IMG/VR virus record: IMGVR_UViG_3300033153_000805
Coordinates: 1-28,861 of that record
Origin: a virus
Strand: one strand, 5' to 3'
DNA length: 28,861 nucleotides
The translations under genes were made by a program, and so were the position numbers. Every line of letters starts with the position of its first letter. Within the stretch, counting starts at the first letter, position 1. The notes beneath the pieces were generated by a model, which was not told where the DNA came from, ran no database searches, and saw only the letters and a program-made list of their open reading frames with translations. This document shows, one piece after another, positions 2,400 through 28,226 of the stretch.

Positions 2400-2947
2400 A
2401 AGCTAATATTCAAATGGCATTAAGCAAAGGAGATATTAACCTTGAAGATGCAATTGATATAAGGGAAATAAAAAATATCAAACTTGCTAATCAACTTTTA
2501 AAACTCAAAAGAAAAGCCAAACAAGAAAGAGAAGAGAAGATGAAAATGCAACAACAAGCTATGGCTGCTCAACAACAATTAAAGTCTCAAGAGATGGCAG
2601 CACAAATGGCACAACAAAAACTTCAAATGGAGACTCAAGCTAAATTGCAGTACAGACAAGCTGATATTGCTTTTGAAATTGAGAAAATGAATAATGAAGC
2701 TATGTTAAAATCTCAATTAATGGATAAAGAGTTTCAATTAAATGTTGAGTTGGCTAAATTAAATAATCAAGGTTTATCAGATAGAGAAATGCAAAGAGAA
2801 GATGCTAAAGCTAAAAGAATAAGTCAAGCAAATACTCAGCAATCAAAAATGATTAACCAAAGAAAAAACAATTTACCACCAATGAACTTTGAATCTAATG
2901 AAGATAGTTTAGATGGGTTTGATTTAGCAGAATTTAACCCTCGTTAA
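2366..2947 (+). CDS. Portal protein, C-terminal coiled-coil tail (separated by frameshift)
   Basis: This frame begins APDEEQKQQLEANIQMAL and continues EDAIDIREIKNIKLANQLL, which reads as the direct extension of the portal. It is followed by a long Gln/Met/Lys-rich helical segment (about residues 45-150) and a short acidic end. It is open from 2360, immediately after a TGA at 2357-2359, and overlaps the portal frame by 30-40 bases. No independent promoter or plausible start is visible: the first codon at 2366 is TTG and the first ATG is 2414. One missing A near 2359-2362 would restore a single reading frame (…EIELAPDEE… or …ELELAPDEE…). No X-XXY-YYZ slippery heptamer is present here, so programmed -1 frameshifting is unlikely. 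I read it as the portal C-terminus rather than a separate gene. Confidence 0.8.
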   Translation: MAPDEEQKQQLEANIQMALSKGDINLEDAIDIREIKNIKLANQLLKLKRKAKQEREEKMKMQQQAMAAQQQLKSQEMAAQMAQQKLQMETQAKLQYRQADIAFEIEKMNNEAMLKSQLMDKEFQLNVELAKLNNQGLSDREMQREDAKAKRISQANTQQSKMINQRKNNLPPMNFESNEDSLDGFDLAEFNPR

Positions 2948-2976
2948 TACTGTCTAAAACATTAATAAATTTTGTG

Positions 2977-2984
2977 TAACTTTG
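2977..2984 (+). promoter_or_regulatory. Bacteroidetes-type promoter, -7 box TAACTTTG
   Basis: TAACTTTGTA lies in the 55-base gap after the portal gene and matches the Bacteroidetes -7 consensus TAnnTTTG. Three other intergenic boxes in the window share the TAnCTTTGTA core. No clear -33 TTTG at normal spacing is seen. It would start the scaffold-capsid transcript near 2990, about 13 nt before ATG 3003. Confidence 0.6.
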
Positions 2985-3002
2985 TAATATAAATAAAATC
3001 AA

Positions 3003-3077
3003 ATGGAAATTAAAGTAAGAGAAGTAACAAATGTTGAGGAAAAAATCAACACAACAAGTCGAACAAGAATTGCTTGA
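3003..3077 (+). CDS. Probable true N-terminus of the scaffold-like gene (short frame, frame-disrupted)
   Basis: ATG 3003 opens a 24-codon frame reading MEIKVREVTNVEEK and then low-quality sequence to TGA 3075-3077. Removing one A from the A6 run at 3040-3045 would join it to the downstream frame as MEIKVREVTNVEEK-STQQVEQELLEKHE, a smooth helical, charged N-terminus, giving a 372-residue protein. It sits at the right distance from the promoter box at 2977. The alternative is that 3031 is the true start and this is a chance or leader ORF. Confidence 0.45.
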   Translation: MEIKVREVTNVEEKINTTSRTRIA

Positions 3078-4122
3078 AAAGCACGAGAATAAGTTCGAGG
3101 ATGCAAAACCTGAAACAACTGAGACTCCAAAGGTTGAAGTAGAAGTTCAGACAGAAACAAAAGTTGAAACTCCTAAAGAGGAAGTTACTCTTGAGAAAAA
3201 AGAATTAAACGAAGAAGAAGTTCTTCGATATATTGGAGATAGATACGGAAGAGAAATAAAATCTTTCGATGAATTAAATCAACAGAGAGAGGAAGAACCT
3301 TTACCTGAAGATGTTTCAAAGTATCTACAATATAAAAAAGAAACAGGTAGAGGATTCAGTGACTTTGCAAAACTGCAAAAGAATTATGATGAAATGGAAC
3401 CTGATACATTGCTAAGAGAATATTTATCTGCAACTGAAAAAGGTTTAGATGCAGATGATATTGAAGACTTAATGGAAGATTATCAATATGATGAAGATAT
3501 AGATGATGATAAAGCCATTAAGAAAATAAAGTTAGCAAAGAAAAAGACTATTGCGAAAGCCAAAGATTACTTTGAGCAACAACAAGAACAATACCGAGTA
3601 CCTCTTGAGTCGAGCAGGGAATCGAGTTCGGAATATAGCGAAGAAGAAATTGAAGGTTATCGTAAATATATAGCCGAAGCAAAGACATCACAGGAAGGTC
3701 TCAAACGTAAGAATGAGGTATTCCACAAGAAAACTGACGATGTGTTTAGTGAGTTCAAAGGTTTTGAGTTTACGTTAGATGACAACAAAGTTTATTTTTC
3801 ACCCGGTGATTCTGCTGAATTGAAGAAGTCTCAACTTAATCCACAGAACTTCGTTAATAAGTTCTTAGATGATGATGGGGTTATGGTAGATGCAGCAGGT
3901 TATCACAAGTCATTAGCAATGGCGATGCATCCTGAAAAGTTTGCTAAGTTTTTTTATGAGCAAGGGAAGTCTGCTGCTGCAGATGAAACTATGCGTGAGT
4001 TGAAAAATATAAAGATGGATACTCGCACTGCTCCTGAAGTAACTAAAACAGATGGTGGGATGCAAATTAGAGCTTTAGATTCCGACTCAGGTCGTGGTTT
4101 AAAGATTAGAAAAAGAAAATAA
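3031..4122 (+). CDS. Acidic coiled-coil protein, putative capsid scaffold
   Basis: This 363-residue protein lies between portal and major capsid protein, the usual position of a phage scaffold. The N-terminal third is Glu/Lys-rich (PETTETPKVEVEVQTETKVE and beyond). The middle is acidic, with runs such as DADDIEDLMEDYQYDEDIDDDKA, followed by helical KKTIAKAKDYFEQQQEQ. The C-terminus is basic (GRGLKIRKRK), as in scaffolds whose C-terminal tail binds the capsid protein. No enzyme motif is visible. The start at 3031 is doubtful; the frame is open only from 3028 and the better start is 3003 with a one-base change in an A6 run. The function is inferred from composition and position. It could also be a non-scaffold inner head protein. 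Confidence 0.6.
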   Translation: MLRKKSTQQVEQELLEKHENKFEDAKPETTETPKVEVEVQTETKVETPKEEVTLEKKELNEEEVLRYIGDRYGREIKSFDELNQQREEEPLPEDVSKYLQYKKETGRGFSDFAKLQKNYDEMEPDTLLREYLSATEKGLDADDIEDLMEDYQYDEDIDDDKAIKKIKLAKKKTIAKAKDYFEQQQEQYRVPLESSRESSSEYSEEEIEGYRKYIAEAKTSQEGLKRKNEVFHKKTDDVFSEFKGFEFTLDDNKVYFSPGDSAELKKSQLNPQNFVNKFLDDDGVMVDAAGYHKSLAMAMHPEKFAKFFYEQGKSAAADETMRELKNIKMDTRTAPEVTKTDGGMQIRALDSDSGRGLKIRKRK

Positions 4123-4155: not shown

Positions 4156-5604
4156 ATGGCTGGACAAGTTAATACTACACCCGGTTTTGATTTACAACCA
4201 AGTGCTCAGAGAGTGCCGTTGAAAACAAACTACATTACTAATTTCGACTTTATGAATCAGTATCTACCTGATACTTATGAAAAAGAGTTTGAAAGATATG
4301 GTAATAGAACAATCTCTTCATTCTTAAGAATGGTGGGAGCTGAAATGCCTTCTAACTCTGACTTAATCAAATGGGCAGAGCAAGGAAGATTACATACTAA
4401 ATATAAGAAATGTACAACTGCTGCATTAATTAATGCTGATGAAGCAGAATTTACTGTAGGAGATGACCCTAACGCAGGTATTTCTACTGCAAGTGCTTTT
4501 GGTGCTAACAGTGGTATTGCAATTAGAGTTGGACAAACAGTTCACGTTTCTGACAACGCAGGTGGTGGTGCTGAAAAAGGTATCGTTATCGAAGTTGATT
4601 ATGCTAACAGTAAATTTAAAGTTGCTTTCTATGCTGCTTCAGGTTTACCGGTTGCAGGTGCAGGTAAAGAATTTACAGTATTCATTTATGGTTCTGAATT
4701 TAAAAAAGGAACTGAAGGAATGGCTAATTCTTTAGAAGCTGATGATTTCATTTACGAGAACTCTCCAATTATCATCAAAGATAAGTACCAAGTATCAGGT
4801 TCTGATATGGCACAAATCGGATGGATTGAAGTAACTACTGAGAATGGAGCTTCAGGATACCTTTGGTATTTAAAATCTGAGCACGAAACAAGGTTAAGAT
4901 TTGATGACTACCTTGAGACTTCAATGATTGAAGCAGTTCCTGCTGAAGCAAATGGTGGTGTGAAAACACAAACTACTGCTGACAATGTTGGAGACAAAGG
5001 TTCTGAAGGAATCTTCTACGTTGTAGGACAGAGAGGAAACGTATGGGGTGGTGGTAATCCAACTACTTTAGCTGAGTGGGATTCTATCATTTCAAGACTT
5101 GATAAGCAAGGTGCGATTGAAGAGAACGTAGTATTCGTTAATAGAGATTTCGGTTTCGATATTGATGATATGCTTTCTAAGCAATCTTCTAATGCTGCAG
5201 GTGGTGTTTCTTATGGTCTATTTGACAATGAGAAAGAAATGGCACTTAACTTAGGATTCACAGGATTTAGAAGAGGTTATGACTTCTACAAATCTGATTG
5301 GAAATACTTAAACGACCCAACTATGAGAGGTGGTTTAGGTTCAGGAGAAATCAACGGACTATTAGTTCCTGCAGGTTCAACTTCTGTATATGACCAAATC
5401 TTAGGTAAGAACGCTAAGAGACCATTCTTGCACGTTAGATATAGAGCTTCTGAAACAGAAGACAGACGTTACAAGTCTTGGATTACAGGTTCTGCAGGTG
5501 GTGCTGAAACTTCAAGCTTAGATGCAATGGAGGTTCACTTCTTATCTGAAAGAGCAGTATGTACTTTAGGTGCAAACAACTTCTTCTTATTCCAAACGGC
5601 ATAA
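4156..5604 (+). CDS. Major capsid protein (HK97-fold type, inferred)
   Basis: At 482 residues, this protein follows the scaffold-like gene and is closed by the strongest terminator in the window, as expected for the most abundant virion protein. The N-terminal region holds FLRMVGAEMPSNSDLIKWAE followed by QGRLH (about 56-80), a pattern I associate with capsid proteins of crAss-like and flavobacterial podoviruses. Residues about 118-178 are a Gly/Val-rich beta segment that looks like a domain insertion, and related segments occur in three other virion proteins here. The C-terminal half contains RFDDYLETSMIEAVPAEA, GQRGNVWGGGNPTTL and WKYLNDPTMRGGL. The start ATG 4156 has an A-rich leader (TTAGAAAAA) and no Shine-Dalgarno. 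It is probably co-transcribed with the scaffold from the promoter at 2977. The fold assignment is inference from context and pattern. Confidence 0.85.
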   Translation: MAGQVNTTPGFDLQPSAQRVPLKTNYITNFDFMNQYLPDTYEKEFERYGNRTISSFLRMVGAEMPSNSDLIKWAEQGRLHTKYKKCTTAALINADEAEFTVGDDPNAGISTASAFGANSGIAIRVGQTVHVSDNAGGGAEKGIVIEVDYANSKFKVAFYAASGLPVAGAGKEFTVFIYGSEFKKGTEGMANSLEADDFIYENSPIIIKDKYQVSGSDMAQIGWIEVTTENGASGYLWYLKSEHETRLRFDDYLETSMIEAVPAEANGGVKTQTTADNVGDKGSEGIFYVVGQRGNVWGGGNPTTLAEWDSIISRLDKQGAIEENVVFVNRDFGFDIDDMLSKQSSNAAGGVSYGLFDNEKEMALNLGFTGFRRGYDFYKSDWKYLNDPTMRGGLGSGEINGLLVPAGSTSVYDQILGKNAKRPFLHVRYRASETEDRRYKSWITGSAGGAETSSLDAMEVHFLSERAVCTLGANNFFLFQTA

Positions 5605-8094: not shown

Positions 8095-9018
8095 ATGGCT
8101 TATATAACTCAATATCAATATTACGAAAATGGAGGTTTAGCTCCTGAGAATAAAAATTGGGGTTCGTACCAATATGTTTCACTTGAAGATATCGTTAACA
8201 ACTTTATGTTAATGTACTATGGAAACCACAACTTGATTAACAATGTTGAAAGGTTTAAAGTTTTATTCCACGCAAAGAGAGCTATACAGGAACTTAATTA
8301 CGATGCATTTAAAGAAATCAAAATATTAGAGCTATCTGTTTGTGATAGTTTAAGGTATGTTTTACCATCTGATTATGTGAATTGGGTAAGAATATCTTTA
8401 TATAAAGATGGATTACTTATGCCACTTACAGAAAATATTCAAACGAATTGGGCATCAGCATATCTACAAGATAATGATTGTAGAATACTTTTTGATTTAG
8501 ATGGTAATGCACTAAGTCCACAAGATTCTACTATAGATTATGACAGGATAACAGGTAGTAAGAAAAGTATATACTTAAACTCTAACTCTCCTTACAATAA
8601 TACATATGGATATTGTTGTGATGGGGATTGGTACTTTGATTACGAAATAGGTGCAAGATATGGTCTTAACACGGAGACTGCTAATAGTAACCCTACATTT
8701 AAAATAAACCCTAAAGGTGGTGTGATAAATTTCAGTTCAGGTATGTCAGGAGAGTTATGTATTCTTGAGTATGTATCTGATGGAATGGAGAATGGAGATA
8801 ATAGTTTGATAACTGTAAATAAATTATTTGAGGAATTTATTTATGCTTACATTGAATTTGCTATCTTAAATTCTAAAGTTGGTGTACAAGAATATATTGT
8901 TAATAGAACAAGAAAAAGAAAGTCAGCTTTATTAAGAAATGCAAAGATTAGAATTTCAAACATCCATCCGGGTAGATTACTACAGAATCTAAGGGGTAGG
9001 GATAAATGGATAAAATAA
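8095..9018 (+). CDS. Tail-tubular/adaptor-like neck protein (P22 gp4-type, inferred)
   Basis: A 307-residue protein starting 3 nt after the previous stop and ending 1 nt before the next ATG, so it is tightly coupled. Residues 52-75 (ERFKVLFHAKRAIQELNYD onward) are the helical signature of adaptor proteins that bind below the portal. They are followed by a beta segment with YVLPSDYVNWVRISLYKDG (88-106). The C-terminal region has a helix (EEFIYAYIEFAILNSKVGV) and a very basic tail (NRTRKRKSALLRNAKIRI and GRLLQNLRGRDKWIK). In crAss-like phages the equivalent gene is called tail tubular protein. The order portal, capsid, ring, adaptor, nozzle supports this. Confidence 0.75.
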   Translation: MAYITQYQYYENGGLAPENKNWGSYQYVSLEDIVNNFMLMYYGNHNLINNVERFKVLFHAKRAIQELNYDAFKEIKILELSVCDSLRYVLPSDYVNWVRISLYKDGLLMPLTENIQTNWASAYLQDNDCRILFDLDGNALSPQDSTIDYDRITGSKKSIYLNSNSPYNNTYGYCCDGDWYFDYEIGARYGLNTETANSNPTFKINPKGGVINFSSGMSGELCILEYVSDGMENGDNSLITVNKLFEEFIYAYIEFAILNSKVGVQEYIVNRTRKRKSALLRNAKIRISNIHPGRLLQNLRGRDKWIK

Positions 9019-9019
9019 A

Positions 9020-11377
9020 ATGGCAAATTTTACAAGAAACTTTACATTAGGTAAAATGAACAAAATGGTTGATGAACGACTCGTTCCAAATGGGGAGTAC
9101 ATTGATGCATTAAATGTTCGTATGGGTTCAACAGAAGCTGCTGAGATAGGAGTTATTGAAAACTCAAAAGGTAATGAACAACTTACTAATATCTTATACG
9201 AGAACACACCTTTATCATCTGATGCAAGATGTATAGGAGCTTTTGAAGATGGAGTAAATGAAACTATATATTGGTTTATACACGACAAAAACTTTCCTAA
9301 CACTCCAACTAAAAAATTAGATTTGATAGTATCATTTGATACTAAAACAGGGATAGTTGTTTACCACGTTATAAGTATTAATGATGGTACTAATGTAAAT
9401 ACTACTTTAAATTTTGATGAGAAGTATTTAATTACAGGAGTTAACAGAGTAGAGGATTTATTATTCTTTACTGATAACTTAAATGCTCCACGAAGAATTA
9501 ATGTAAAAAAGAATTACGCAGACCCTGTTAATAATGTAGATGGTTTTTTAGAAGAAGATATTTTAGTTATTAAAAGACCACCGGTTTCTTCTCCAACAAT
9601 AAACTTAGTTCAAACAGGTGGACAAGAAAACTTTTTAGAAGAAAGATTTATATGTTTTGCATATAGATATAAGTATGAAGATGATGAGTATTCAGCTACA
9701 TCACAATTTTCTAACCCTGCTTTTATACCAAATGCATTTGCCTTTACTCAAGCAAGTTACTTGAATGAGGGTATGACTAACTTTTATAATACTGCAGAGA
9801 TTACTTTCAACACAGGTGGTCCATTAGTAAAAGGAATTGATTTATTATTCAAAGATGCTAATAGTCCTGTTGTTAAAATAATAGAAAAATTAACCAAAGC
9901 TGACAATGGTTATACTGACTATCAAGATGTAACTTATCAGTTTAAAAACAGTAAGATATTTACTATTCTTCCTGAAGCTGACATCTTAAGATTATATGAT
10001 AATGTTCCTCGATACGCACAAGCTCAAACCATTATGGGTAATAGACTTATGTATGGTAACTATGTGGAAGGTTATGATATGCTTGATAAAGACAATAACC
10101 CTGTTAGGTTAGACTTTACTGTAGCACAAGAAAACACAGGGTTTGAACCTGATGAAGCCGATGGAGATAAGTCTTCTTTTTCATATACCATAGATGGAAC
10201 TGTAAGCGTACCATCATCAAAAGCTACTTTTGATATGACAGGTCTTGATTTAGTTGAAGGAGCTTTGATAGGATTTTCATTTACATTTCTACACGATAGT
10301 TGGTCAGGTACTACTCCTATACCAACCTCAAGCACTATAAACGAACCACCTTTAAATTTATCATTTGCATTTCTATTAGTTAAGGATTATGCATCCGTAT
10401 ATGAGTGGGTTACATCTCCTGAGTTTATATCTTTAATAGGTACAGATTTACCGAGTGGTACAATTCAACCTATGGCTACTGCAGACAATGGAACAACAAT
10501 GACTGATGTGTATAATCAACAGTTCATAGGTAGTCTTACTCTTGATGGTATTCTTTGTACAAAATTTGATAGTGGTATATCAGGAGGTGGTCAGGCAATA
10601 ATTGCAAATGCAAGTCCTGCAAATAGTAATATTGAATTTGTGTTTCCTGCAGTTCAGTATAAAGATACTGCCGGTAGTTCAGGTAGATTAAACACAGAAT
10701 ACTTTACCACATCTCAAGCTGAATTATTATATAGTAAGTCAGGTAATGGTTCAAGCTTACATAGTAATAGAGGTTATGAAGTTGGTATGATTTATATGGA
10801 TGACTTTAGTAGAGCAACTACTGCTTTAGTAAGTCAGTACAATACAGAACATATAGATTGCTCTGCATCTGCCACAAGAAATCAATTAAAGGTAACTATA
10901 CCTCCAACTCAGATTGCACCTAAATGGGCAACAAGATATAAGTTTGCAATAAAACCTGACAAAGAAACTTACGATACTATTTTTAGTAACATCTTTTTTA
11001 CTGACCCTGATACTAATGATACATACTTTTTATTAGAAGGAGAGAACTCTGCAAAGATTACAGATGGTCAAAGATTAATAGTTAAAGCAGATACATCAGG
11101 ACCAACTACCAATTGTGTTTTTTCAACAGTATTAGAAAAACAAGCTTATAATTCCGATGCTTTTCAACCTGTAGATAGTTCAGGTAATGACCTTAAATTT
11201 TTAGCAGGTACCTATATGAAGTTAAAAGCTAATAACTTCTCTGTTGAAAGTTCAGCTAATGCAGTGGTAGATACAGGAACTGCAGAACAGACTGCTAAAA
11301 AAAGAGACACTTACCCTGAAATTGGATTAAAAGTTTTTTACACAGGAGATGGTTCTGAGATGGAAGATGTGAATTAA
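9020..11377 (+). CDS. Tail nozzle/muzzle-type protein, N-terminal part (frame-disrupted)
   Basis: A 785-residue beta-rich protein. Its N-terminus (NFTLGKMNKMVDERLVPNGE followed by YIDALNVRM and STEAAEIGVIENSKGN, residues 7-52) is a hallmark of large phage tail nozzle proteins related in layout to T7 gp12, expected to form a beta-propeller hub. Later segments include RFICFAYRYKYEDDEYSA (about 208) and GNRLMYGNYVEGYD (about 340). The frame ends at 11375-11377 shortly after KVFYTGDGSEMEDVN. The next frame (open from 11359) continues with LRNYKLQKTVTASQDYDSFY and FFVGDNM. A single missing A at 11371-11373 (EDVK-LRNYKL) would make one protein of about 1543 residues. The start directly follows the adaptor stop. 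Confidence 0.8.
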   Translation: MANFTRNFTLGKMNKMVDERLVPNGEYIDALNVRMGSTEAAEIGVIENSKGNEQLTNILYENTPLSSDARCIGAFEDGVNETIYWFIHDKNFPNTPTKKLDLIVSFDTKTGIVVYHVISINDGTNVNTTLNFDEKYLITGVNRVEDLLFFTDNLNAPRRINVKKNYADPVNNVDGFLEEDILVIKRPPVSSPTINLVQTGGQENFLEERFICFAYRYKYEDDEYSATSQFSNPAFIPNAFAFTQASYLNEGMTNFYNTAEITFNTGGPLVKGIDLLFKDANSPVVKIIEKLTKADNGYTDYQDVTYQFKNSKIFTILPEADILRLYDNVPRYAQAQTIMGNRLMYGNYVEGYDMLDKDNNPVRLDFTVAQENTGFEPDEADGDKSSFSYTIDGTVSVPSSKATFDMTGLDLVEGALIGFSFTFLHDSWSGTTPIPTSSTINEPPLNLSFAFLLVKDYASVYEWVTSPEFISLIGTDLPSGTIQPMATADNGTTMTDVYNQQFIGSLTLDGILCTKFDSGISGGGQAIIANASPANSNIEFVFPAVQYKDTAGSSGRLNTEYFTTSQAELLYSKSGNGSSLHSNRGYEVGMIYMDDFSRATTALVSQYNTEHIDCSASATRNQLKVTIPPTQIAPKWATRYKFAIKPDKETYDTIFSNIFFTDPDTNDTYFLLEGENSAKITDGQRLIVKADTSGPTTNCVFSTVLEKQAYNSDAFQPVDSSGNDLKFLAGTYMKLKANNFSVESSANAVVDTGTAEQTAKKRDTYPEIGLKVFYTGDGSEMEDVN

Positions 11378-11454: not shown

Positions 11455-13650
11455 ATGCAGAATGTTATCACTCAAGGAACTCAAACTGTTGGAGCAGGTG
11501 GTGGAACTATAGAAAATGAATTTAAGACTGCTATATATGGTACTACAACTTCAAGTGGTGCACCGGGAAATGGAAGTTTAGGTGTTAACTATTGGCAGTT
11601 TGCAACTCCAAGAGTTGTGGCTGATGGAAGTACCTTACCACTATATTTATACGTTTCAGGAACAAGAGCTTGTGAACAAGCTAAACATAGTAAAAAAAGA
11701 AGGTCATCTATAAAAGGTAGAATAATTGTGTATAGAGCAGAATCTACTTTAATATTTGAAAGCGAACCTCTTGATGCATCTCCTGATGTATGGTATGAAA
11801 GTGAAGATTCATTTGGTATAGTAAGAGGAGATGGCTTCTGTGAATACACTATAAGTGTGGCAGCATCAGAACCAAACCCAATAGTTATAGACTATCAAGA
11901 TACAAGTGACTTACCTCAACAAGCGACTTGTGCTCCCGGAAAAACTATAACCTTTGTAGCTGAATGTAATTCGGCAGCTATCAACTCAAGTACACCACCA
12001 CAATCTGCAGCGAATGTTACAGGATTGAATAGTGCAATAACTGTAGATGATGGTACTCATTTAGGAGATGTACAGAATCAAGTATTATCAGGTAATGCTA
12101 CGCAACCTGCAATATCTAATTCAGGATTCTATAACTGTTATGCATTTGGAAATGGATGTGAAAGTTATAAAATTAGAGATAGTGTTTTAGGAAAAGATTT
12201 TAAACTTGGAAATAGAGTTACATCAACTGCAGCATTAGATTATAAAGAAGTAAGAAGATTTGCAGACATTACTTATAGTGGTATATATAACGATGAGTCT
12301 AATGTAAATAGACTTAACGAGTTTAATGGTGGTCTATTAAACTTTAAACCATTAGAAGAATCTTTTGGTCCAATACAAAAATTATTTGCAAGAGAAACAG
12401 ATGTACTTACATTACAAGAAGATAAGATATCTTATGTTCTTTCAGGTAAGAACTTATTATCTGATGCAGGTACAGGTAGTTTACTACAATCTGTTCCTGA
12501 AGTTTTAGGAACTCAGATTGCAAGAATAGAAGAATTTGGAATCAGTTTTAATCCTGAAAGTTTTGCTCAATGGGGTGCTGATAAATACTTTACTGATGCT
12601 AAAAGAGGTTCGGTACTTAGATTAGTGGGAACTTCTTATAGTAATGAACAATTAGAAGTTGTATCATCATATGGTATGAGAACTTGGTTTAGAGATTTAT
12701 TCTTAACAAGTTTTGAAACACAGAAGCTTGGAGGTTTTGACCCTTATATGAATGAGTATGTACTTTCAGCTAACCAACAAAAACTACCAATACCAAAAGA
12801 TTGTGTAGCTTGTGGAGTCCAACAGGAGATAACAATTACTACAGAGAATCCATTTGATAACTGCTTTGAGTTTGGGCAAGAGGTAGGACAAGTTGTTATT
12901 TCTTGGGAAGTTAATGGACCAATTAGAGGTTCTTTTGATGTACTTGCAACATATGATGGTGTTACTGTTTCAAATAGTAACAATTCCTCAAGTGGTCAAT
13001 TGATTTTTGATAAAAATAAAATAAGTGTAACTGAAGCTAATATTCAAATTATACCTGACCAATCCAATACAGAGGTTACTATAACGCTTACTGTTCCGTG
13101 TCCGGAAGCTAAGAGCATTACTATAATAGAAGTATGTGCTACGACACCTAATGAAGCAGGTTTATTAGTACATAACGAGCATAGATTTGTAGATGGAACG
13201 TATGTGTCTCCATTACAATCTACGCAAGTTCAGTATGGTCAAGGTGCTTCTCAACCAATTGTAACTTTCTATAGTTCTATAGCAGGAACAACAGGTTCAG
13301 GACCAATACCTACACCGGGTTCAAATATTACTTTAGCATTTAATAAATTTGGAGGAGATACTGCAGTATTTGATTTAGCTTCTAATAGATTTAGATGGTT
13401 AGTTACTACGCAAAACTACGCAAACACACAAGCTTCAGTTGGTGCTTTGTTAGCTGCATCTATTCCGATGGCAACTGCATCAGCAGGTGCTCCTAATTAT
13501 TACACAGGTACGTTTACTATGCCACCTGTAAATGATGGGGATTATTTGTATATTATTTACGATTACAGAAAACCAACTTTAATAGATTTATGTTACGATG
13601 AACGAGATGTTACGGATGCTTGTTGTGATTGTGATTTAACAGGAGATTAA
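11455..13650 (+). CDS. Tail nozzle/muzzle-type protein, C-terminal part (separated by frameshift)
   Basis: This is a 731-residue frame from the first ATG, but it is open from 11359, and the residues before ATG 11455 (QKTVTASQDYDSFYEFFVGD) look like genuine tail-protein sequence, so I read it as the continuation of the gene at 9020. It contains NCYAFGNGCESYKIRDSVLG (about 226-245), FADITYSGIYNDESNVNRLN (about 270), an LQEDKISYVL segment and KYFTDAKRGSVLRL, repeated in many nozzle proteins as propeller blades. The last quarter (from about 475) carries Ig-like beta modules (FGQEVGQVVISWEVNG, TEVTITLTVPCPEAKS) and it ends in a cysteine cluster, DACCDCDLTGD. A palindrome copy follows at 13655. No own promoter is seen. 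Confidence 0.78.
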   Translation: MQNVITQGTQTVGAGGGTIENEFKTAIYGTTTSSGAPGNGSLGVNYWQFATPRVVADGSTLPLYLYVSGTRACEQAKHSKKRRSSIKGRIIVYRAESTLIFESEPLDASPDVWYESEDSFGIVRGDGFCEYTISVAASEPNPIVIDYQDTSDLPQQATCAPGKTITFVAECNSAAINSSTPPQSAANVTGLNSAITVDDGTHLGDVQNQVLSGNATQPAISNSGFYNCYAFGNGCESYKIRDSVLGKDFKLGNRVTSTAALDYKEVRRFADITYSGIYNDESNVNRLNEFNGGLLNFKPLEESFGPIQKLFARETDVLTLQEDKISYVLSGKNLLSDAGTGSLLQSVPEVLGTQIARIEEFGISFNPESFAQWGADKYFTDAKRGSVLRLVGTSYSNEQLEVVSSYGMRTWFRDLFLTSFETQKLGGFDPYMNEYVLSANQQKLPIPKDCVACGVQQEITITTENPFDNCFEFGQEVGQVVISWEVNGPIRGSFDVLATYDGVTVSNSNNSSSGQLIFDKNKISVTEANIQIIPDQSNTEVTITLTVPCPEAKSITIIEVCATTPNEAGLLVHNEHRFVDGTYVSPLQSTQVQYGQGASQPIVTFYSSIAGTTGSGPIPTPGSNITLAFNKFGGDTAVFDLASNRFRWLVTTQNYANTQASVGALLAASIPMATASAGAPNYYTGTFTMPPVNDGDYLYIIYDYRKPTLIDLCYDERDVTDACCDCDLTGD

Positions 13651-18989: not shown

Positions 18990-21900
18990 ATGAACGAACA
19001 GGCATTTGATGATTTATATAAAGAGTTTGTAAGAACAGGATACAGAAAGTCAAAAGAAGATTTCAAGATTCTTATGAGCACTAATCTTGATGCATTTACA
19101 GATGGCTTTAACCAATTCGTAAATACAGGATACAATGGAGATGAAGCAGCTTTTGCTGAGTTGATTGGTGTAGAAGTACCTGTAAAAAAAAAAGAAGAAA
19201 CTCAAGACGCTTCTACGGATTTGTTATTGGCAGGTGGTTCTTTGGAGCCAGTCGAGTCGTCTGACTCCGACCCTTACATAGTTCCTGTAGAAGACCCTCA
19301 AACACAAAGTGATAGCACGTTCAACGAATATGCTGACTATCTTAATACCTATCAAGGAACTCCCGAATTTGACCAAAGTAAAGCTGACTCTTTAGGAAAC
19401 GCATCTATGAGTCAACAGTTTCAAGAACTCTCTCAAGGATACCAAGAAAACTTTGAAAAAACCGGATTCTATGGACCACCTGTACAAGGAAGAGATACAA
19501 GAGAGGATGATTACGTTGCTCCTACAATAGGTATGTACCCTGATGAGCAAACACTCAATAGATATTATGACCAACAACTTGCTGACAGGATGTTCACGTT
19601 AGAACAAATAGCTAAAGAGGAACCTAAACTGCAAGAGCAACTTCATAATGAACAGTTAGTTATACAACAACAACAAGATATTGATGCTGCTATAAATGCA
19701 CAAGTTATAGAAGAAGAGGGGTTCAAAAAAGCTTTAGCTACCATAGATAGTAGTTTAGTAGACCAAGAAGAGGAAGAGGTTGTTCCTTTTTTAACAACCC
19801 AATTTAAAGGTTATGGTTTTATATTTCAAGAAACAGGTGTAGGAGATTCAATGATAGTATCTGCACCTAATGGAAAGACTATTACTATTGATTTAGACCC
19901 CTTTACAACTGCAACAGAAGTAGCTGAGTCACAGAAGTTGAGAGACTTTATGCTTACTAATGCTACATTAAAACCAACTGCACCTATATCAGGAGAGGTT
20001 CAGAACTCTATGAGAGCAAAACAAATAAGACCAACCTATAGAATGAATTGGGATGGTTCGGTATCTACTCATAAGTTTGCTTCATATGAAGAGGATGGTA
20101 AGTTTAAGGTTATCCCAACTATATTCCCATCTTCTACGAATGCTGCAGATATGTCCACAAATCCTGATGATTGGATTGAACCTTTTAGATTTAGTGAAGC
20201 AATTGCAGAAGCAGAAAAAAGGGGAGAGGTATTTGAGTTTGATACTGCCGAAGAAGCTGAAGCTTTTGCTCAAGGTAGTTGGAAAGATATATCTACTCAC
20301 GATGCTGAAGGGTTAGACTTTTATCAAAAGAGAGGATTAGACTACAATAGAGAAAAGAAAATATACGATGCCTATATGGAAGCTACAGATATAATGTACT
20401 TCTTAGACCCCGATAGAGATGGTATAGCATACGCACCATTTAGACAAGAAAATTTAACTGAAGAACAAAAAAAATTATTAGGAGATAGTGTAGGTAAATT
20501 TTACATAGATGGTAAATTAAGGAATGATACTCAAGATATGCTAAGAAATGCTGAAGGAGTTGCTGAAAATTATGTAGATGATTTTATGAACGAAGACTCT
20601 CAACTTGCAAGAGAAGAGTTTGATTTATACTTAAATAAAAGACATCAAGTAGAAGCAGTTAATGCTATTAAATTAAATAGAAGAGTAAAAGCCATAGAGG
20701 ATGATGTAGTGCAAAGTTCATTAATGGAGTTTGGTGTACTACCTGAACAATTAATAGGTGCCACTTTTGAAGACCCTATTCAGAATCAAAGAGCAAAGAA
20801 TATAGTTCAAGCATATGATGAAGCAAGTGTTTATAAAGACATAGCAGCAGACAAATATTATAAAGCCAATACTTATTATGATATGAAGCATAATAAGGCA
20901 GCAACAAAAGAGTACGCTGATAATTGGGAATCATTTACAACTGAATGGTCAGGTGGTTTAGCGAGAGGTAAAGCAGGTAATGTTATTTTAGCAGGAGCTT
21001 TGTTCCCTGAAATATTAGGTGGTTATGATTTAGATGATGAAGAGTCAACAGAAAAAATGGCAGCAAAACTTGTTCAGTATTTGTCTGATGAACCTGAAAA
21101 AGTGTCTCGTATAATGACAAGATATAGTATGGCGAGAACATCTGATGAAATAGCATATACTATATGGAGTGACCCTTTTGAATGGGCAACAAGTTTAGCA
21201 GCCGGAAGTATATCTCAAATGCTACCTTATGGTTGGAAGATTGTACTCGGTACAACTGCAACAGGTGCAGGTACAGGAGCAGCGATTGGTTCAGCCGGAT
21301 TTGCCGGTGGTCCTACAGGTTTTGCTACAACGAGTGCCGGAGCAGTAACAGGAGCTACTTGGGGATTTAGAACAGGTATGGCAGCTACATCAATGGCTAT
21401 GGAATATACCAATGAAATGATAAGTGCTATTGATAATTTCTGTAGAGAGAATGGAGGGAGTATTAATGACCCACATATGGTTGCTGAAGCATTACAACAT
21501 CAATCAGTTTGGGATGAAGGTAGAAGAAGAGGTTTAGCGAGAGGTATACCAATTGCAACTGTAGATTTACTTACTGCAGGTTTAGCAGGTAAAATGTTAA
21601 AGGTAGGTACAATAGCAAATAAAGGTAAAAGAGTAGCTGCACTTGCAACAGAAAGAATTGTTGCTGACCCTTTCTCAGAAGGTGTTGGAGAATATCTTGC
21701 ACAAGTAAATGTAGGGGATGACATAAATTGGAAAGAAATATATGCTGAGATGGGTGGTGCTATGGGTAACAATACTTCTAATATGGCTATTAACCTTGCA
21801 AAGGAAACTATATTTACTAACAACATAGAGAAAGCATCATTACTCACTGACCTAAACTACTTATCAACAGAAGCAACAAGTGACTCAAGGATATCTGAGT

Positions 21901-24900
21901 GGGGTAATAATATGGAAAGACTTGGACAAATTACTCCTCAACAAAATAAACGTATTCAAGATAATGTTGGTTTAAGAAAGACTGCTAATGAGTTACTTAA
22001 AACAGGTAGATTAGGAAGAAAGTTTCAGGGCAAAAACTCACAAGCAGTAACCACAAGAGTTATGCAATTGCTTGGAGCAAAGGCAGAGCTATCATCAACT
22101 ACAAATAGAAAAGAATTATTTGGTAAAAAAATTGGAGAAATTAATGATGAGTTAAATGACATCATTACAACTAAGTCACTTAGACCAAAGAATGAGCAAA
22201 CAATTTTAGCAGGTACAGGTGTATTAGGAGTGCAAGAACAAGCTGCACCAATGGATGTGAGAACTGCTTTACCGAGCTACAGTATTAAAAAGAATAAATT
22301 TAGCAAGACAAGAAAGGTATCTAAAGAGGAGTTCTTAAAATATGTAAAAAGTTTAGATGCCACAAGACTACTGAAGCTTAATGCATCAGTGGTAAATGAT
22401 GAGGAGACATCTACCTTTGTTCAAGAAAAACTATTAGAAGCTAAATTAAAAAATAAGTTAAATGAAACTTCAGCAGGTAATGTTGAATCTACAGAGTCTG
22501 TATCTGTATCTGATGGTGTATCTACGGCAACAGAAACTGAAACTACTGAAGCTCCTGTTGAGCAAACACAATTACAAAGTGATGTTGCTGAAACAATAGA
22601 GGAAGATGGAGTGTCTTCAAAGACACTTGAAACTACCGAAGCAGTTGTTGATAATCAACAGGCAGCACAGACTATGGAAAATACAGAGGTATCAGACTTA
22701 GAAGCTACTCTACAAGAACAAGAGAGTGGTACTCAACCTAAAGTAGATTTCAGAATGAAAACTGTAGAAGAAACCGACCAAGAATTTGGACCTTCTGCAG
22801 AGGAGACTCAAGATATAACAAGACAAATAAACCAACAAGAGTCAGGGAATGTAGCTACAGAAATTAAGTCAGGAGTTACACAAAAGATAGATGTGGAAGA
22901 GTTAGGTAATAGAACTAAGAAACCTTTTAAAACTGTAAAGATGTCAGTGGTAAAAGGTATACCATCTGTATTTACTATCTCAGACCAACTCACAACAGGA
23001 GATGTTGTTAATCCAAACACAGGAAATACTATAAACGAATTGAAAGGTGGTTTAGGATTTACAAATACTGAAGGCAACGAACAAGCTGCTTGGGCAAACA
23101 CAACTGAAAAAGAAGCTGCCGATTTATATGTAAAAGCTGAAAGAGTTTACAATCAAAACAAAAAATTGTTTGATGATTGGTGGACTGCTAATCCTGAGTA
23201 TAATGGTTTAGTACCTATGAATGTAGTTAAGATGGGAGAGGGTTCTATTCTATCTAATGAAGCCACGTTTAGAGTGTTGTTAGATAACTTAAGTAAGATA
23301 CCTGCAAAGAATAAAAAGAATGCATTAAAAGTTCTAAGACAAAGTTTAAATAAAGTAATAGCTGATAGACAAAAGTCACTTAAAGAAGGAGGTAAAGCTG
23401 AATCAACTATGAAGCAGTACACTAAGCAATTAAATAATGCAAAGGATGCCTTGACTTTATTAGAGGGTGCAAAAACAATTGAGGATGTTATAGCTATAGA
23501 AAAGATTAAAGAACTTACTTTACCTGCAAGAAGAGAACTGATAGAGTTAATAGGTTATAGTCAACCTAATAGACATAATGAAACTAAAGGAGTGTCTGCT
23601 CCAAACTCTGCAGTATCTAAAGCTTTGATTGATGGTATGGGTAAAGATGCAAGGAAGCTAATAAATCTCGGTGTAATTACAGATTTAATTACAGACAAAC
23701 AAATGGCTAAAGTTCCCCAAAGAAGTATCGTAGCTATTCAAGGTATTGATGTTTTAAATGGTGGTGTAATTGAAACGAATCATCCTAACTACAAGTATGG
23801 AGTTAAGGGTAAAACTATTGGTATATTAGATGAGTCTATCGCAATACAAGATGCGTATGGAACTGCATTTAATAATGCGTTAGTTGGTTTAACAAAAGCA
23901 GAAGCGAATCCAAAAAAAGTTACAAAGAAACAAGCAGAAGCAAATCAAGAAACATTTGATAAAGCTCAAGAGAAAATAAAAAAGAAAGAAAAGTTAAATA
24001 AAAAAGAGACTGCTGCAGTTGAAGAAGGTAGATTAACAGAGGGTCAATTAAAGGCAGCAAGTCTTGGTACTATATTAACTGAAACCATTGGAGTACAGAA
24101 TGGTTTACCGGGTCTTGAGTTTATCGGAGCAATTGCTGAAGGTAATGTAGATAACGTAAACAAGCTTGTAAACTTTATGAACACTGCTTTCCCAAGTGTT
24201 AACATATCAACAGACAGTCAAACTTTTAGTACAGTTATAGAATCTGAGGGTGTAAAGAAATACCTAAAAGGAGATGAGGTTATATATGGTGTTACTGTAG
24301 ATGGAGATGTATATATTAATCCTGATGTACATAATAGTCAGTCTTCTATTTACAATACTGCTATTCACGAGATGGGTCACGTTTGGACTGACTACTTACA
24401 GACCACTAAGCAAGGGAAGAAGATATATAAAAAAGGTGCAGAATTAGTGCAACAAACTGAAGAGTTTAAGAAGCAACTAAAAGCTTTCAATGGAGATGTA
24501 ACTAAAGCCACTAATGAAGCTATGGCGATTTTGATTGGTAACAAAGGTCAAACCATTGCAGATGCATCAATCAAATCTAAGTTTCAAGAATGGTTGCTTG
24601 GGATGTGGAAATATATTAAGAGTCAATTCAAATTATCTAAAGACTTAACTGCAAAAGATATTCAGAATATGAACCTTGATACTTTCTTAGGTACTGCATT
24701 AGCAGATATATTTTCAGGAAAAGAAATAAAACTTACTGACCAACAATTAAAACAATTAAAGAATCCTGATGCAGCTTTCAGACAATCTATGTCTATTGAC
24801 AGTATAATTCAAACAGGTAGAGCAAATGGCTTTAGTGATGCATCAATAAAAGTTGTACTACAGAACAGAGGATTTAAAGCTAAAGCTATAAAAGATGCAA

Positions 24901-27900
24901 TGACTGTTCAGATTGATATGGTTACTCAAATGCCATCAGAGTTTTCAAACATTGAAGGTGGTGTAAATGTTGGTTTAAGATTATTTAATGAAGTTAGAAA
25001 TGCAGTAAACGCTTTCTCTATAGAAGGACCAAGAGGAGGTAGAGGTAGAGCAGGAGTAAGAACAAAAACATTTGCAGAAGTTAGAGAAAAGGCAATTGAA
25101 CTAATGAAACAGAATCCAATATGGCAGGTTCAAGATGAGCAAACCCAAATGGAATTAATAAATGCATTTGATAGAGCACTTGGTATTAGAAGTAATCCAA
25201 GAGTTAGACAACAGATAGCAGACATTAGAGCTAAGTTGAAACAAAGAAGAATAGGAGCTAAGAATCTTAAGGAAGCTCAAAGAAGAATGCGAATGAGAAT
25301 AAGACAATTACTTCCTAAGTCTAAGAATTATTCTAATACTTCATTAAATAAATTACTTAAGATAGTTAATGACACAACAGTTAAAAACTTTGATGGTCAA
25401 ATGGAAAGAGTTCTTGATGAGGTAGAAGCACAAAGAACTGTATTAAGAAATAAAGTTATACTTAAGATACAAGATTTAGTAGCTAAAAAAGCTAAGACTA
25501 TTAAGACACAATCAGGTAAGAGAAGGTCTGCAGGTTTAGATGCAATAGGTCAAAGTTATTTTGCTGAAGTCAAAAAAGTTTTACAGGCAGCAATAAAACA
25601 AGATATGGATTCTATGTTGGAGTTACAAAACAGTATAGATGAGAACCTGTATAACGAGGGTGTACAAGCTATTGAAGAGGGTGGAAAGCCAACAAGAAAA
25701 CAACAGGTAATGCTTGATAGACAGTTAGCTTTAGATACATTCGCAGATGTTCTTACAATGAACCTTGAAGAGGTTAATGCTTTATTTGAAGAAGTTAAAA
25801 AGACAAGAGGAGAATCCATTGCGAGATTAAATAATCGTAGACAACTTAGAAAGATGATGAGTCAATCTATTAAAGACTCTATTAATGAACAAATACGACA
25901 AGACTTTAAAGAACTTTATGATGCAAATGGTAATCCATTAAATGAAAACCAATTAGCAAAACGTAAAGATAGAATTAGGTTAGCTTTTAAAAACAACGGA
26001 GTCTTTGCTGCGTTAAGTGAATGGGGTAAACAATTTAAAAGTGAGGGTAGAAAATATAAAGTAAACAAACTTACTCAGTTTTTTTACAACAACCTTGCTC
26101 ATCTTGGAACTATAACAAACATATTAGACAGAGGTAAGAAAGGAATGTTTACAAAGGTATTCTATGATAACTTAAATAATATGGATGAGAATACTTTAAA
26201 TGGTATTAGAAGAGTTACACAAGAAATGAATGCCATCACTGAATCAGTTACAGGAAAGACTTGGTTAGAGTGGAAGTATTCATTAGGTAATGATATAATA
26301 GAACTAAGTGGTATAAAGAATAGTAAGACAGGAGCAGTGTACACTGAAGCTATGAATAAAGACCAAGCTATGAGAGTTATCGCTTTATCTTTAAATGATG
26401 TACAGAATGATAAATTAGTAGAGCAAGGGTTTACAAAAGAAAAAATAGACCAACTGAAAGATTTTGTAGGAGCAGAGAACGTAAGCATAATTGAACAGAC
26501 TGTTGACTTTTTATCTAATAAATACTATGAACAAACTAATGCAGTATTCTCTCAGGTTAATGATGTTAACTTAGGTTTTGTAGAAAACTATTTCCCTACT
26601 CAAACATTATCTCAATCTAAGGTAACTGCATCTATGCTTGATGGAAATGAAATACAAAAAATATTTACTGCAGATTTCTCTCCTGCACTTAAAGAAAGAA
26701 CAGACCAAAAGAGTGATGTTAAGTTAGGTTTATCTTTTACTGATGTGATGGAAGAACACACTAAACAAATGGAGAAGTATAAAGCTTATGCGTTAGGTGT
26801 TAAAGAAATTGATTCTGTATTAAAAGATGAAGGGGTTAAAAACCTTTTACAAGAAACAGGAACTGAAAGTATATTTAAGTCTGCATTGAACTATGCCATC
26901 AATCCTGACTCAGGTCCGGCAGTTAAAGAAACTATAATTGATGTACTACAAAGAAAGTTTACAGGTTTTGCATTAGCATTTAAGTTAATCCAAATACCTA
27001 AACAGATGACTTCATTTATACAAGCATACGATAGTTATGCCGGTGGTAAAACAAAAGTTCCCGGATTCAAGCTTATGAGTTTTATGTATGACTATGCGAA
27101 AGTATTAGCTATGGTTAGGTCAGAAATAAAAGAAGCAAGAGAAGTTTCAGCTACGTTTGATAATCGTATCAAGCAGGGGTTAGAGGGAGATATATATGGG
27201 TTAGAATCAGGTACAAGAACATTCAAGAAAGGTACTGCACAACAAGGAAAGACAGGTAAATTTAGAAGAGGTTTTAGAAAAGCCACAGGTTTAGCTACAG
27301 TGACAGGGGATATACTTGGTGTACTTGGATACAAAGCAGTGTACAATCAAGCCATTAGAAATGGTATGAGTAAAGCTGAAGCACTTAGATTGTTTAATGA
27401 TTATAATGCAACTCAGCAAACTCGTAGAGCTACTGAAAAAAATCCACTACAACAAAGTAAAGATTGGAGTAAAAGGTTCTTCACTATGTTTGGTAGTACA
27501 TTATTCTTACAACAGAATAAAGTGTATCAATCAATGAACAGTATGATTAATGATGTTAGTAGAGGTAAAGTTCCTTCAAGTAAGGATGCAAAAACTTTTG
27601 CTTTAAACTTTGCCGTAGCCAATGTATTATTTACAATGGCAAGTTACTCTGCATCTTTAATATCAGGTAATAGTGATGATAGAGACAGAGCAATGAAAGC
27701 AATAATGGATGCAGCAATGGGTAAGAATTTAATATTCCAAATCCCTTTAATTGGTGCAGGATTAGAGCAGTTAGAAAACACTATAACAGGTTCAAGAAAA
27801 CCTATTAGTGAGGGTGTTAATCCTTTTAATTCTGTTATATATAAAGTTAAGAAAGCATACGATGGGTTAAGTTCAGAGAGTATAATCAAAACTGCTCAAC

Positions 27901-28226
27901 CATTTTTAGAAATAATGATTGGTGCTCAAGTTGATTCTCCAATAGCTTTAATTAAATTATTAGGAGGAGATACTTCTGAAGAAAACATAATGCAAACAAT
28001 TGGTATCTCTAAATCTTACAGACCGGGATATGGACAGAAGCAAGGTAAGAGTAAAACTACCACACCTAAACCTAAGAAAACAAGTAAGAAAGACCTTAAG
28101 ATAATTGATGAAGACTTGTATAATGATTTGTATGGGAAAGATTCAGAAATATATAAGATTAAACAAGAACAAAGACAAATTAAAAAAGACATTCAAAAAG
28201 AATTAGATGACGCTTTAAATATGTAA
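18990..28226 (+). CDS. Giant (3078 aa) ejection/polyvalent virion protein with zincin motif
   Basis: The largest gene here, in the position of the third and largest podovirus ejection protein (T7 gp16 place). Seen in order: two tandem motifs at residues 5-32 and 35-61 (AFDDLYKEFVRTGY, AFTDGFNQFVNTGY); a domain at about 347-436 (WDGSVSTHKFASYEEDGKF, IPTIFPSS, FDTAEEAEAFAQGSWK) common in phage internal proteins; a Gly/Ala-rich hydrophobic stretch at about 750-815 that could enter a membrane; a Thr/Glu/Ser-rich linker at about 1155-1250; HEMGH at 1793-1797 with a downstream NEAMA (E1843), as in gluzincin metalloproteases; a long Lys/Arg-rich helical region (about 2000-2500); and a C-terminal part with FALAFKLIQIPKQMTSFI (about 2655) and hydrophobic helices. 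A role in crossing the cell envelope during DNA entry is inferred. No RNA polymerase DxDxD motif and no clear lysozyme motif were found. No frame disruption was seen over 9.2 kb. Confidence 0.78.
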   Translation: MNEQAFDDLYKEFVRTGYRKSKEDFKILMSTNLDAFTDGFNQFVNTGYNGDEAAFAELIGVEVPVKKKEETQDASTDLLLAGGSLEPVESSDSDPYIVPVEDPQTQSDSTFNEYADYLNTYQGTPEFDQSKADSLGNASMSQQFQELSQGYQENFEKTGFYGPPVQGRDTREDDYVAPTIGMYPDEQTLNRYYDQQLADRMFTLEQIAKEEPKLQEQLHNEQLVIQQQQDIDAAINAQVIEEEGFKKALATIDSSLVDQEEEEVVPFLTTQFKGYGFIFQETGVGDSMIVSAPNGKTITIDLDPFTTATEVAESQKLRDFMLTNATLKPTAPISGEVQNSMRAKQIRPTYRMNWDGSVSTHKFASYEEDGKFKVIPTIFPSSTNAADMSTNPDDWIEPFRFSEAIAEAEKRGEVFEFDTAEEAEAFAQGSWKDISTHDAEGLDFYQKRGLDYNREKKIYDAYMEATDIMYFLDPDRDGIAYAPFRQENLTEEQKKLLGDSVGKFYIDGKLRNDTQDMLRNAEGVAENYVDDFMNEDSQLAREEFDLYLNKRHQVEAVNAIKLNRRVKAIEDDVVQSSLMEFGVLPEQLIGATFEDPIQNQRAKNIVQAYDEASVYKDIAADKYYKANTYYDMKHNKAATKEYADNWESFTTEWSGGLARGKAGNVILAGALFPEILGGYDLDDEESTEKMAAKLVQYLSDEPEKVSRIMTRYSMARTSDEIAYTIWSDPFEWATSLAAGSISQMLPYGWKIVLGTTATGAGTGAAIGSAGFAGGPTGFATTSAGAVTGATWGFRTGMAATSMAMEYTNEMISAIDNFCRENGGSINDPHMVAEALQHQSVWDEGRRRGLARGIPIATVDLLTAGLAGKMLKVGTIANKGKRVAALATERIVADPFSEGVGEYLAQVNVGDDINWKEIYAEMGGAMGNNTSNMAINLAKETIFTNNIEKASLLTDLNYLSTEATSDSRISEWGNNMERLGQITPQQNKRIQDNVGLRKTANELLKTGRLGRKFQGKNSQAVTTRVMQLLGAKAELSSTTNRKELFGKKIGEINDELNDIITTKSLRPKNEQTILAGTGVLGVQEQAAPMDVRTALPSYSIKKNKFSKTRKVSKEEFLKYVKSLDATRLLKLNASVVNDEETSTFVQEKLLEAKLKNKLNETSAGNVESTESVSVSDGVSTATETETTEAPVEQTQLQSDVAETIEEDGVSSKTLETTEAVVDNQQAAQTMENTEVSDLEATLQEQESGTQPKVDFRMKTVEETDQEFGPSAEETQDITRQINQQESGNVATEIKSGVTQKIDVEELGNRTKKPFKTVKMSVVKGIPSVFTISDQLTTGDVVNPNTGNTINELKGGLGFTNTEGNEQAAWANTTEKEAADLYVKAERVYNQNKKLFDDWWTANPEYNGLVPMNVVKMGEGSILSNEATFRVLLDNLSKIPAKNKKNALKVLRQSLNKVIADRQKSLKEGGKAESTMKQYTKQLNNAKDALTLLEGAKTIEDVIAIEKIKELTLPARRELIELIGYSQPNRHNETKGVSAPNSAVSKALIDGMGKDARKLINLGVITDLITDKQMAKVPQRSIVAIQGIDVLNGGVIETNHPNYKYGVKGKTIGILDESIAIQDAYGTAFNNALVGLTKAEANPKKVTKKQAEANQETFDKAQEKIKKKEKLNKKETAAVEEGRLTEGQLKAASLGTILTETIGVQNGLPGLEFIGAIAEGNVDNVNKLVNFMNTAFPSVNISTDSQTFSTVIESEGVKKYLKGDEVIYGVTVDGDVYINPDVHNSQSSIYNTAIHEMGHVWTDYLQTTKQGKKIYKKGAELVQQTEEFKKQLKAFNGDVTKATNEAMAILIGNKGQTIADASIKSKFQEWLLGMWKYIKSQFKLSKDLTAKDIQNMNLDTFLGTALADIFSGKEIKLTDQQLKQLKNPDAAFRQSMSIDSIIQTGRANGFSDASIKVVLQNRGFKAKAIKDAMTVQIDMVTQMPSEFSNIEGGVNVGLRLFNEVRNAVNAFSIEGPRGGRGRAGVRTKTFAEVREKAIELMKQNPIWQVQDEQTQMELINAFDRALGIRSNPRVRQQIADIRAKLKQRRIGAKNLKEAQRRMRMRIRQLLPKSKNYSNTSLNKLLKIVNDTTVKNFDGQMERVLDEVEAQRTVLRNKVILKIQDLVAKKAKTIKTQSGKRRSAGLDAIGQSYFAEVKKVLQAAIKQDMDSMLELQNSIDENLYNEGVQAIEEGGKPTRKQQVMLDRQLALDTFADVLTMNLEEVNALFEEVKKTRGESIARLNNRRQLRKMMSQSIKDSINEQIRQDFKELYDANGNPLNENQLAKRKDRIRLAFKNNGVFAALSEWGKQFKSEGRKYKVNKLTQFFYNNLAHLGTITNILDRGKKGMFTKVFYDNLNNMDENTLNGIRRVTQEMNAITESVTGKTWLEWKYSLGNDIIELSGIKNSKTGAVYTEAMNKDQAMRVIALSLNDVQNDKLVEQGFTKEKIDQLKDFVGAENVSIIEQTVDFLSNKYYEQTNAVFSQVNDVNLGFVENYFPTQTLSQSKVTASMLDGNEIQKIFTADFSPALKERTDQKSDVKLGLSFTDVMEEHTKQMEKYKAYALGVKEIDSVLKDEGVKNLLQETGTESIFKSALNYAINPDSGPAVKETIIDVLQRKFTGFALAFKLIQIPKQMTSFIQAYDSYAGGKTKVPGFKLMSFMYDYAKVLAMVRSEIKEAREVSATFDNRIKQGLEGDIYGLESGTRTFKKGTAQQGKTGKFRRGFRKATGLATVTGDILGVLGYKAVYNQAIRNGMSKAEALRLFNDYNATQQTRRATEKNPLQQSKDWSKRFFTMFGSTLFLQQNKVYQSMNSMINDVSRGKVPSSKDAKTFALNFAVANVLFTMASYSASLISGNSDDRDRAMKAIMDAAMGKNLIFQIPLIGAGLEQLENTITGSRKPISEGVNPFNSVIYKVKKAYDGLSSESIIKTAQPFLEIMIGAQVDSPIALIKLLGGDTSEENIMQTIGISKSYRPGYGQKQGKSKTTTPKPKKTSKKDLKIIDEDLYNDLYGKDSEIYKIKQEQRQIKKDIQKELDDALNM
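22611..22626 (-). repeat. Dispersed 16-bp palindrome, copy 4, inside the giant gene
   Basis: GTGTCTTCAAAGACAC, in the same orientation as copy 3 and extended by an A/T pair to 18 bases. It is read in frame as part of DGVSSKTLE at about residue 1208, in the low-complexity Thr/Glu/Ser linker. It is the only copy far from a gene start. Confidence 0.9.

Follow-up and report, generated by a model that had tools for sequence, protein, structure and literature searches.

The last gene of the structural module in a 28,861-nucleotide stretch of marine phage DNA (hereafter the window) encodes a giant protein in which a predicted zincin-like metallopeptidase, a conserved M domain, and a variable slot lie between two large conserved modules. 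We favour, with somewhat better than even confidence, the interpretation that this giant is an ejected, protease-bearing delivery polyprotein, whose peptidase would process the giant chain itself or proteins packaged with it. The window giant is a further case of the already described polyvalent-protein class, and its family is unusually clear in its modular layout.

The giant gene and its modules

Translation of the open reading frame at 18990-28226 yields 3078 amino acids with no internal stop, in agreement with the sequence-only reading, and a protein identical to it is encoded on a second contig, L001. Searches of Pfam, PHROG, and the PDB with the whole protein as a single sequence returned no convincing match, as expected from the earlier remark that long stretches of it have no recognised function. 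BLAST coverage across 86 relatives nonetheless revealed a fixed order of parts: N module, hypervariable slot, M module, zincin, and C module (Table 1). The N module is probably a virion or ejection scaffold and the C module probably a packaging and ejection scaffold. At the N-terminus of the giant (window 19002-19169), FDDLYKEFVRTGY and FTDGFNQFVNTGY resemble each other and may form a short repeat, which is shared with MW202828 at approximately 34% identity.

Table 1. Features of the giant gene and its protein, in window coordinates.
Feature	Residues	Coordinates	Strand	Basis
Giant gene, probable virion protein	3078 aa plus stop	18990..28226	+	Open frame; same protein in L001; 86 related sequences
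N module, conserved; putative virion/ejection scaffold	250-1120	19737..22349	+	Matched by ~66/86 relatives
Gly/Ala-rich stretch, mildly hydrophobic	753-799	21246..21386	+	Composition, hydropathy
Hypervariable cargo slot, acidic linker here	1121-1245	22350..22724	+	Slot lengths and domain matches in relatives
M module, alpha/beta domain	1246-1690	22725..24059	+	Present in 64/86 relatives; confident AF2 fold
Zincin-like metallopeptidase domain	~1685-1910	24042..24719	+	AF2 topology, conservation
HEMGH active-site motif	1793-1797	24366..24380	+	Sole HExxH; conserved
E1843 in NEAMA, predicted third zinc ligand	1843	24516..24518	+	Invariant; in helix after HExxH helix
C module, all-helical; putative scaffold	2011-3078	25020..28223	+	~70/86 relatives; AF2

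A Gly/Ala-rich region had been noted within the protein and suggested to be membrane-active. The enrichment is present (22 of 40 residues are Gly or Ala near 753-799), while the hydropathy peak reaches only about 1.1, under the transmembrane threshold, and lends little support to membrane activity. In the relative L002, the counterpart of this stretch overlaps a match to DUF6861 (7e-7).

The C module is all-helical in its AF2 model (pLDDT 72.5), and fold searches of the PDB with this model gave no match. The earlier suggestion that residues 850-1150 and 1900-2600 might hold further enzymes is not supported: residues 2011-3078 belong to this helical module, residues 850-1120 fall within the conserved N module, and the enzymes that relatives do carry lie in the slot. 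The M module is both confidently folded by AF2 and strongly conserved; if the window protein has a further activity, the M domain (~1270-1640) is the likeliest place for it.

The predicted zincin domain

HEMGH is the only HExxH motif in the giant, against approximately 0.005 expected by chance from its composition. The NEAMA motif (1842-1846) places E1843 50 residues past H1793 and 46 past H1797, exactly as the sequence-only reading had described. Both histidines and the glutamate of HExxH, the tryptophan that follows, and E1843 are invariant in all 40 aligned sequences. The same residues are invariant in 25 of 25 sequences of another alignment, to which Tenacibaculum phage Gundel_1 and MW202828 contribute and in which the glutamate at the E1843 position is also conserved in L040 and L082.

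An earlier set of 80 relatives had been fetched by zincin alignment with HExxH as the search pattern, which biases any count of its conservation. An unbiased set was therefore assembled by retrieving relatives through the C module, giving 78 giants long enough to judge, some of them from near-identical loci, so that the counts are not independent. Sixty-one contain a zincin of the window type, located 215-289 residues ahead of the C module. A second zincin type (HEVFHAV-like, with NEE..AEL downstream) is found in 12 and HEIGH in one, leaving four with no HExxH, one of them 5'-truncated. The contigs carrying the zincin relatives L184-L209 are assigned to genomes that are for the most part from Bacteroidota (Tannerella, Dysgonomonas, Prevotella, and Spirosoma), and are perhaps prophages or phage contigs.

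The AF2 model of residues 1246-2010 (M module plus zincin), built from 40 sequences, has a pLDDT of 86.7. Its zincin part contains three strands, with HExxH on a helix and E1843 on a later helix; the predicted strands (511-515, 518-523, and 529-531 in model numbering) follow a helix at 477-488. A zincin topology is thus predicted at the very place, around residue 1793, where its absence would have spoken against the metalloprotease proposed earlier. Profile matches are weak and consistent: the phrog_87 metallo-protease profile matches six of the 40 sequences (best 0.001), and SprT-like and M78 profiles also match with weak E-values. Taken together, the invariant ligands, predicted topology, and profile matches support assignment of the domain at ~1685-1910 as a zincin by its modelled topology. 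When the M-plus-zincin model was searched against the PDB by fold, hits to a helical pair in M prevailed and no zincin reached significance, an absence that was not counted against the assignment. Among predicted viral structures, the model found matches in the giants of elemo and Gundel_1 and in phage proteins with NAT_SF or PcfJ-like annotations.

Local hhalign comparison with the HExxH domain of the N4 virion RNA polymerase (vRNAP) aligned the HExxH piece at 2e-5, a value reached by none of 100 column shuffles, and the Glu helix at 0.0015. Since any pair of zincins could match at the HExxH piece, this alignment supports common superfamily membership rather than close kinship. That HEMGH arose by chance in a structural protein unrelated to zincins, as the empty Pfam and PDB searches with the full-length sequence might suggest, is extremely improbable and was ruled out given its chance expectation, its invariance in relatives, and a predicted topology that fits a zincin.

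The cargo slot and exchange of the middle cassette

Among relatives retaining M, the slot ranges from 94 to 1080 amino acids in length. Some of the 46 slots scanned hold a GNAT acetyltransferase, DUF3293, or DUF7178. Matches to ART-PolyVal and DUF3990 in these slots were sub-threshold, and ADP-ribosyltransferase domains are possible there. The window slot comprises only a 125-amino-acid acidic, Thr/Val-rich linker with no enzyme cargo. In the MW202828 giant (L004), a second motif, HEFGH, occurs at residue 1615 inside the 1080-amino-acid slot and perhaps marks an additional metallopeptidase as cargo.

Comparison of L002 with the window indicates that the middle is exchanged as a cassette: the N and C modules are 67% and 77% identical, respectively, whereas the zincin is only 28% identical and M is absent from L002. 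In L003, the giant gene is interrupted close to the cargo slot by an in-frame TAG (8933-8935), leaving parts of 1300 and 1940 codons. No ATG, GTG, or TTG occurs within 66 codons past it, and the other long ORFs of the locus stop at TAA; the TAG may reflect a natural split, readthrough, or a sequence error.

Genome context and probable presence in the virion

The window is a structural module comprising the end of TerL, the portal, a virion structural protein (4156-5604), more virion proteins, and finally the giant. The protein at 4156-5604 has 67% identity to its MW202828 counterpart and 46% to that of elemo. The same gene order, with the giant as last gene, is found in MW202828, Flavobacterium elemoF, and Cellulophaga phi38:1 and phi18:3. 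The phage is a podophage of the Elemovirus/Cellulophaga type, with the giant gene at the end of its structural module, and its host is probably a member of the Bacteroidota.

The earlier description of the giant as a virion protein with an ejection-protein layout fares well in its first part. The syntenic last gene of phi18:3 encodes gp123, a protein with a structural annotation based on MS/MS and a record of detection in virions. The window zincin finds a match in Gundel_1 (2.5e-12), and the N region of the Gundel_1 giant in turn matches gp123 (7e-14). On the basis of this synteny and chain of homology, the window giant is likely present in the virion particle; its ejection into the host with the DNA is inferred.

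Two genes of the module are interrupted in the window. The portal coding sequence changes frame at ~2360 and so falls into two ORFs (540-2399 and 2366-2947). At this break, 28 additional bases in the sister contig of L001 keep its portal frame open, indicating a 28-base deletion or assembly error in the window record. Similarly, the phrog_14478 structural gene occupies two ORFs in the window (9020-11377 and 11455-13650) and a single open frame of 1574 residues in the sister contig, which points to a second indel in the window record.

Proposed function

In the mechanism we propose, the N and C modules would act as a packaging and ejection scaffold flanking a cassette made up of the cargo slot, the M domain, and a predicted active zinc metallopeptidase. 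The giant would be packed in the capsid and delivered along with the genome. During maturation or after entry, the peptidase would cut the giant chain or co-packaged proteins, and cleavage would free the middle cassette. We put this last part, in which cutting of its own chain or of co-packaged proteins releases the cassette, at slightly less than an even chance. A processing role is favoured by the near-obligate zincin beside a variable slot, as a zincin of some kind is kept in 74 of the 78 giants whatever the cargo. Three points argue against it. The window slot is empty, leaving little cargo to free; N4 vRNAP, which has the same part order, is packaged unprocessed (work cited in PMC5512222); and the PDB fold searches of the model returned no significant zincin.

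Iyer et al. (PMC5512222) propose both self- or co-packaged processing and host targeting for the class, citing processing of P1 DdrB and the unprocessed N4 vRNAP. The main alternative, possible if rather unlikely, is that the window zincin is an injected effector cleaving host proteins (defence, envelope, or regulatory), with the rest of the chain only a carrier. Exchange between zincin versions would fit shifting host targets, but retention of the zincin regardless of cargo better suits a general role in processing, and no host target is known. It is less likely still that the zincin fold serves structure or packaging with little proteolytic role, as may hold for N4, in which encapsidation needs the HExxH-domain region and the packaged protein is uncut (work cited in PMC5512222). 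However divergent the copies, none has lost either histidine or either glutamate, and the second zincin type also keeps HExxH and a downstream Glu, which points to selection for catalysis.

Extending the delivery and processing interpretation beyond the window, we tentatively suggest that the virion giants of a widespread marine phage family might be injected delivery polyproteins, each consisting of a fixed scaffold, one hypervariable slot, and an exchangeable, near-obligate protease that frees cargo inside the host cell. If so, they would be the phage counterpart of polymorphic toxin systems that release themselves. The family bears on the role of MPTase domains in injected giants. Its natural variants (empty and filled slots, several zincin versions, and the cultured relatives Gundel_1 and the elemo phages) make cargo release directly testable.

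Comparison with known systems

Polyvalent proteins are very large multidomain phage proteins, and their MPTase domains, for which 12 clades are published, have an N-terminal helix, a three-stranded sheet, an HExxH helix, and a later Glu helix (Iyer et al. 2017, PMC5512222). The window giant resembles them in size, multidomain architecture, and predicted zincin topology, and its relatives likewise combine several unrelated domains including enzymes, joining the zincin with GNAT, DUF3293, and ART-like domains. Unlike them, the window copy has the zincin as its one recognisable enzyme domain and no sequence match to any Pfam polyvalent model, and its family has a fixed scaffold flanking a single variable slot. 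A literature search of partial coverage found no papers on polyvalent proteins in flavobacterial phages and none describing a layout of slot and protease like this one in marine flavophages.

N4 vRNAP (PDB 9PNR, PMC12633501) is also a giant virion protein, in which an HExxH domain is followed by a mostly helical C-terminus of ~1,100 residues. These parts follow one another in like order and size in the window giant, with sequence similarity confined to local profile matches; the window C module has no PDB fold match, and no T7-like RNA polymerase domain was found in the window giant by Pfam or PDB sequence searches.

The Podoviridae sp. ctfjg026 (MW202828) giant, of 3859 amino acids, has all modules in common with the window at ~30-40% identity, and its gene likewise sits after the structural genes; it differs in its long slot with the additional HEFGH. 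The Gundel_1 giant shares the window zincin, whereas Flavobacterium elemo giants carry the second type, and both match the window M-plus-zincin model by fold. The elemo giant gene occupies the same position as the window gene. Both differ from the window in diverged N and C modules and in their cargo (GNAT in Gundel_1 and DUF3293 in elemo). In plan, the window family conforms to the 'polyvalent protein' described by Iyer et al. (2017), and its parts come in an order like that of the N4 vRNAP C-terminus.
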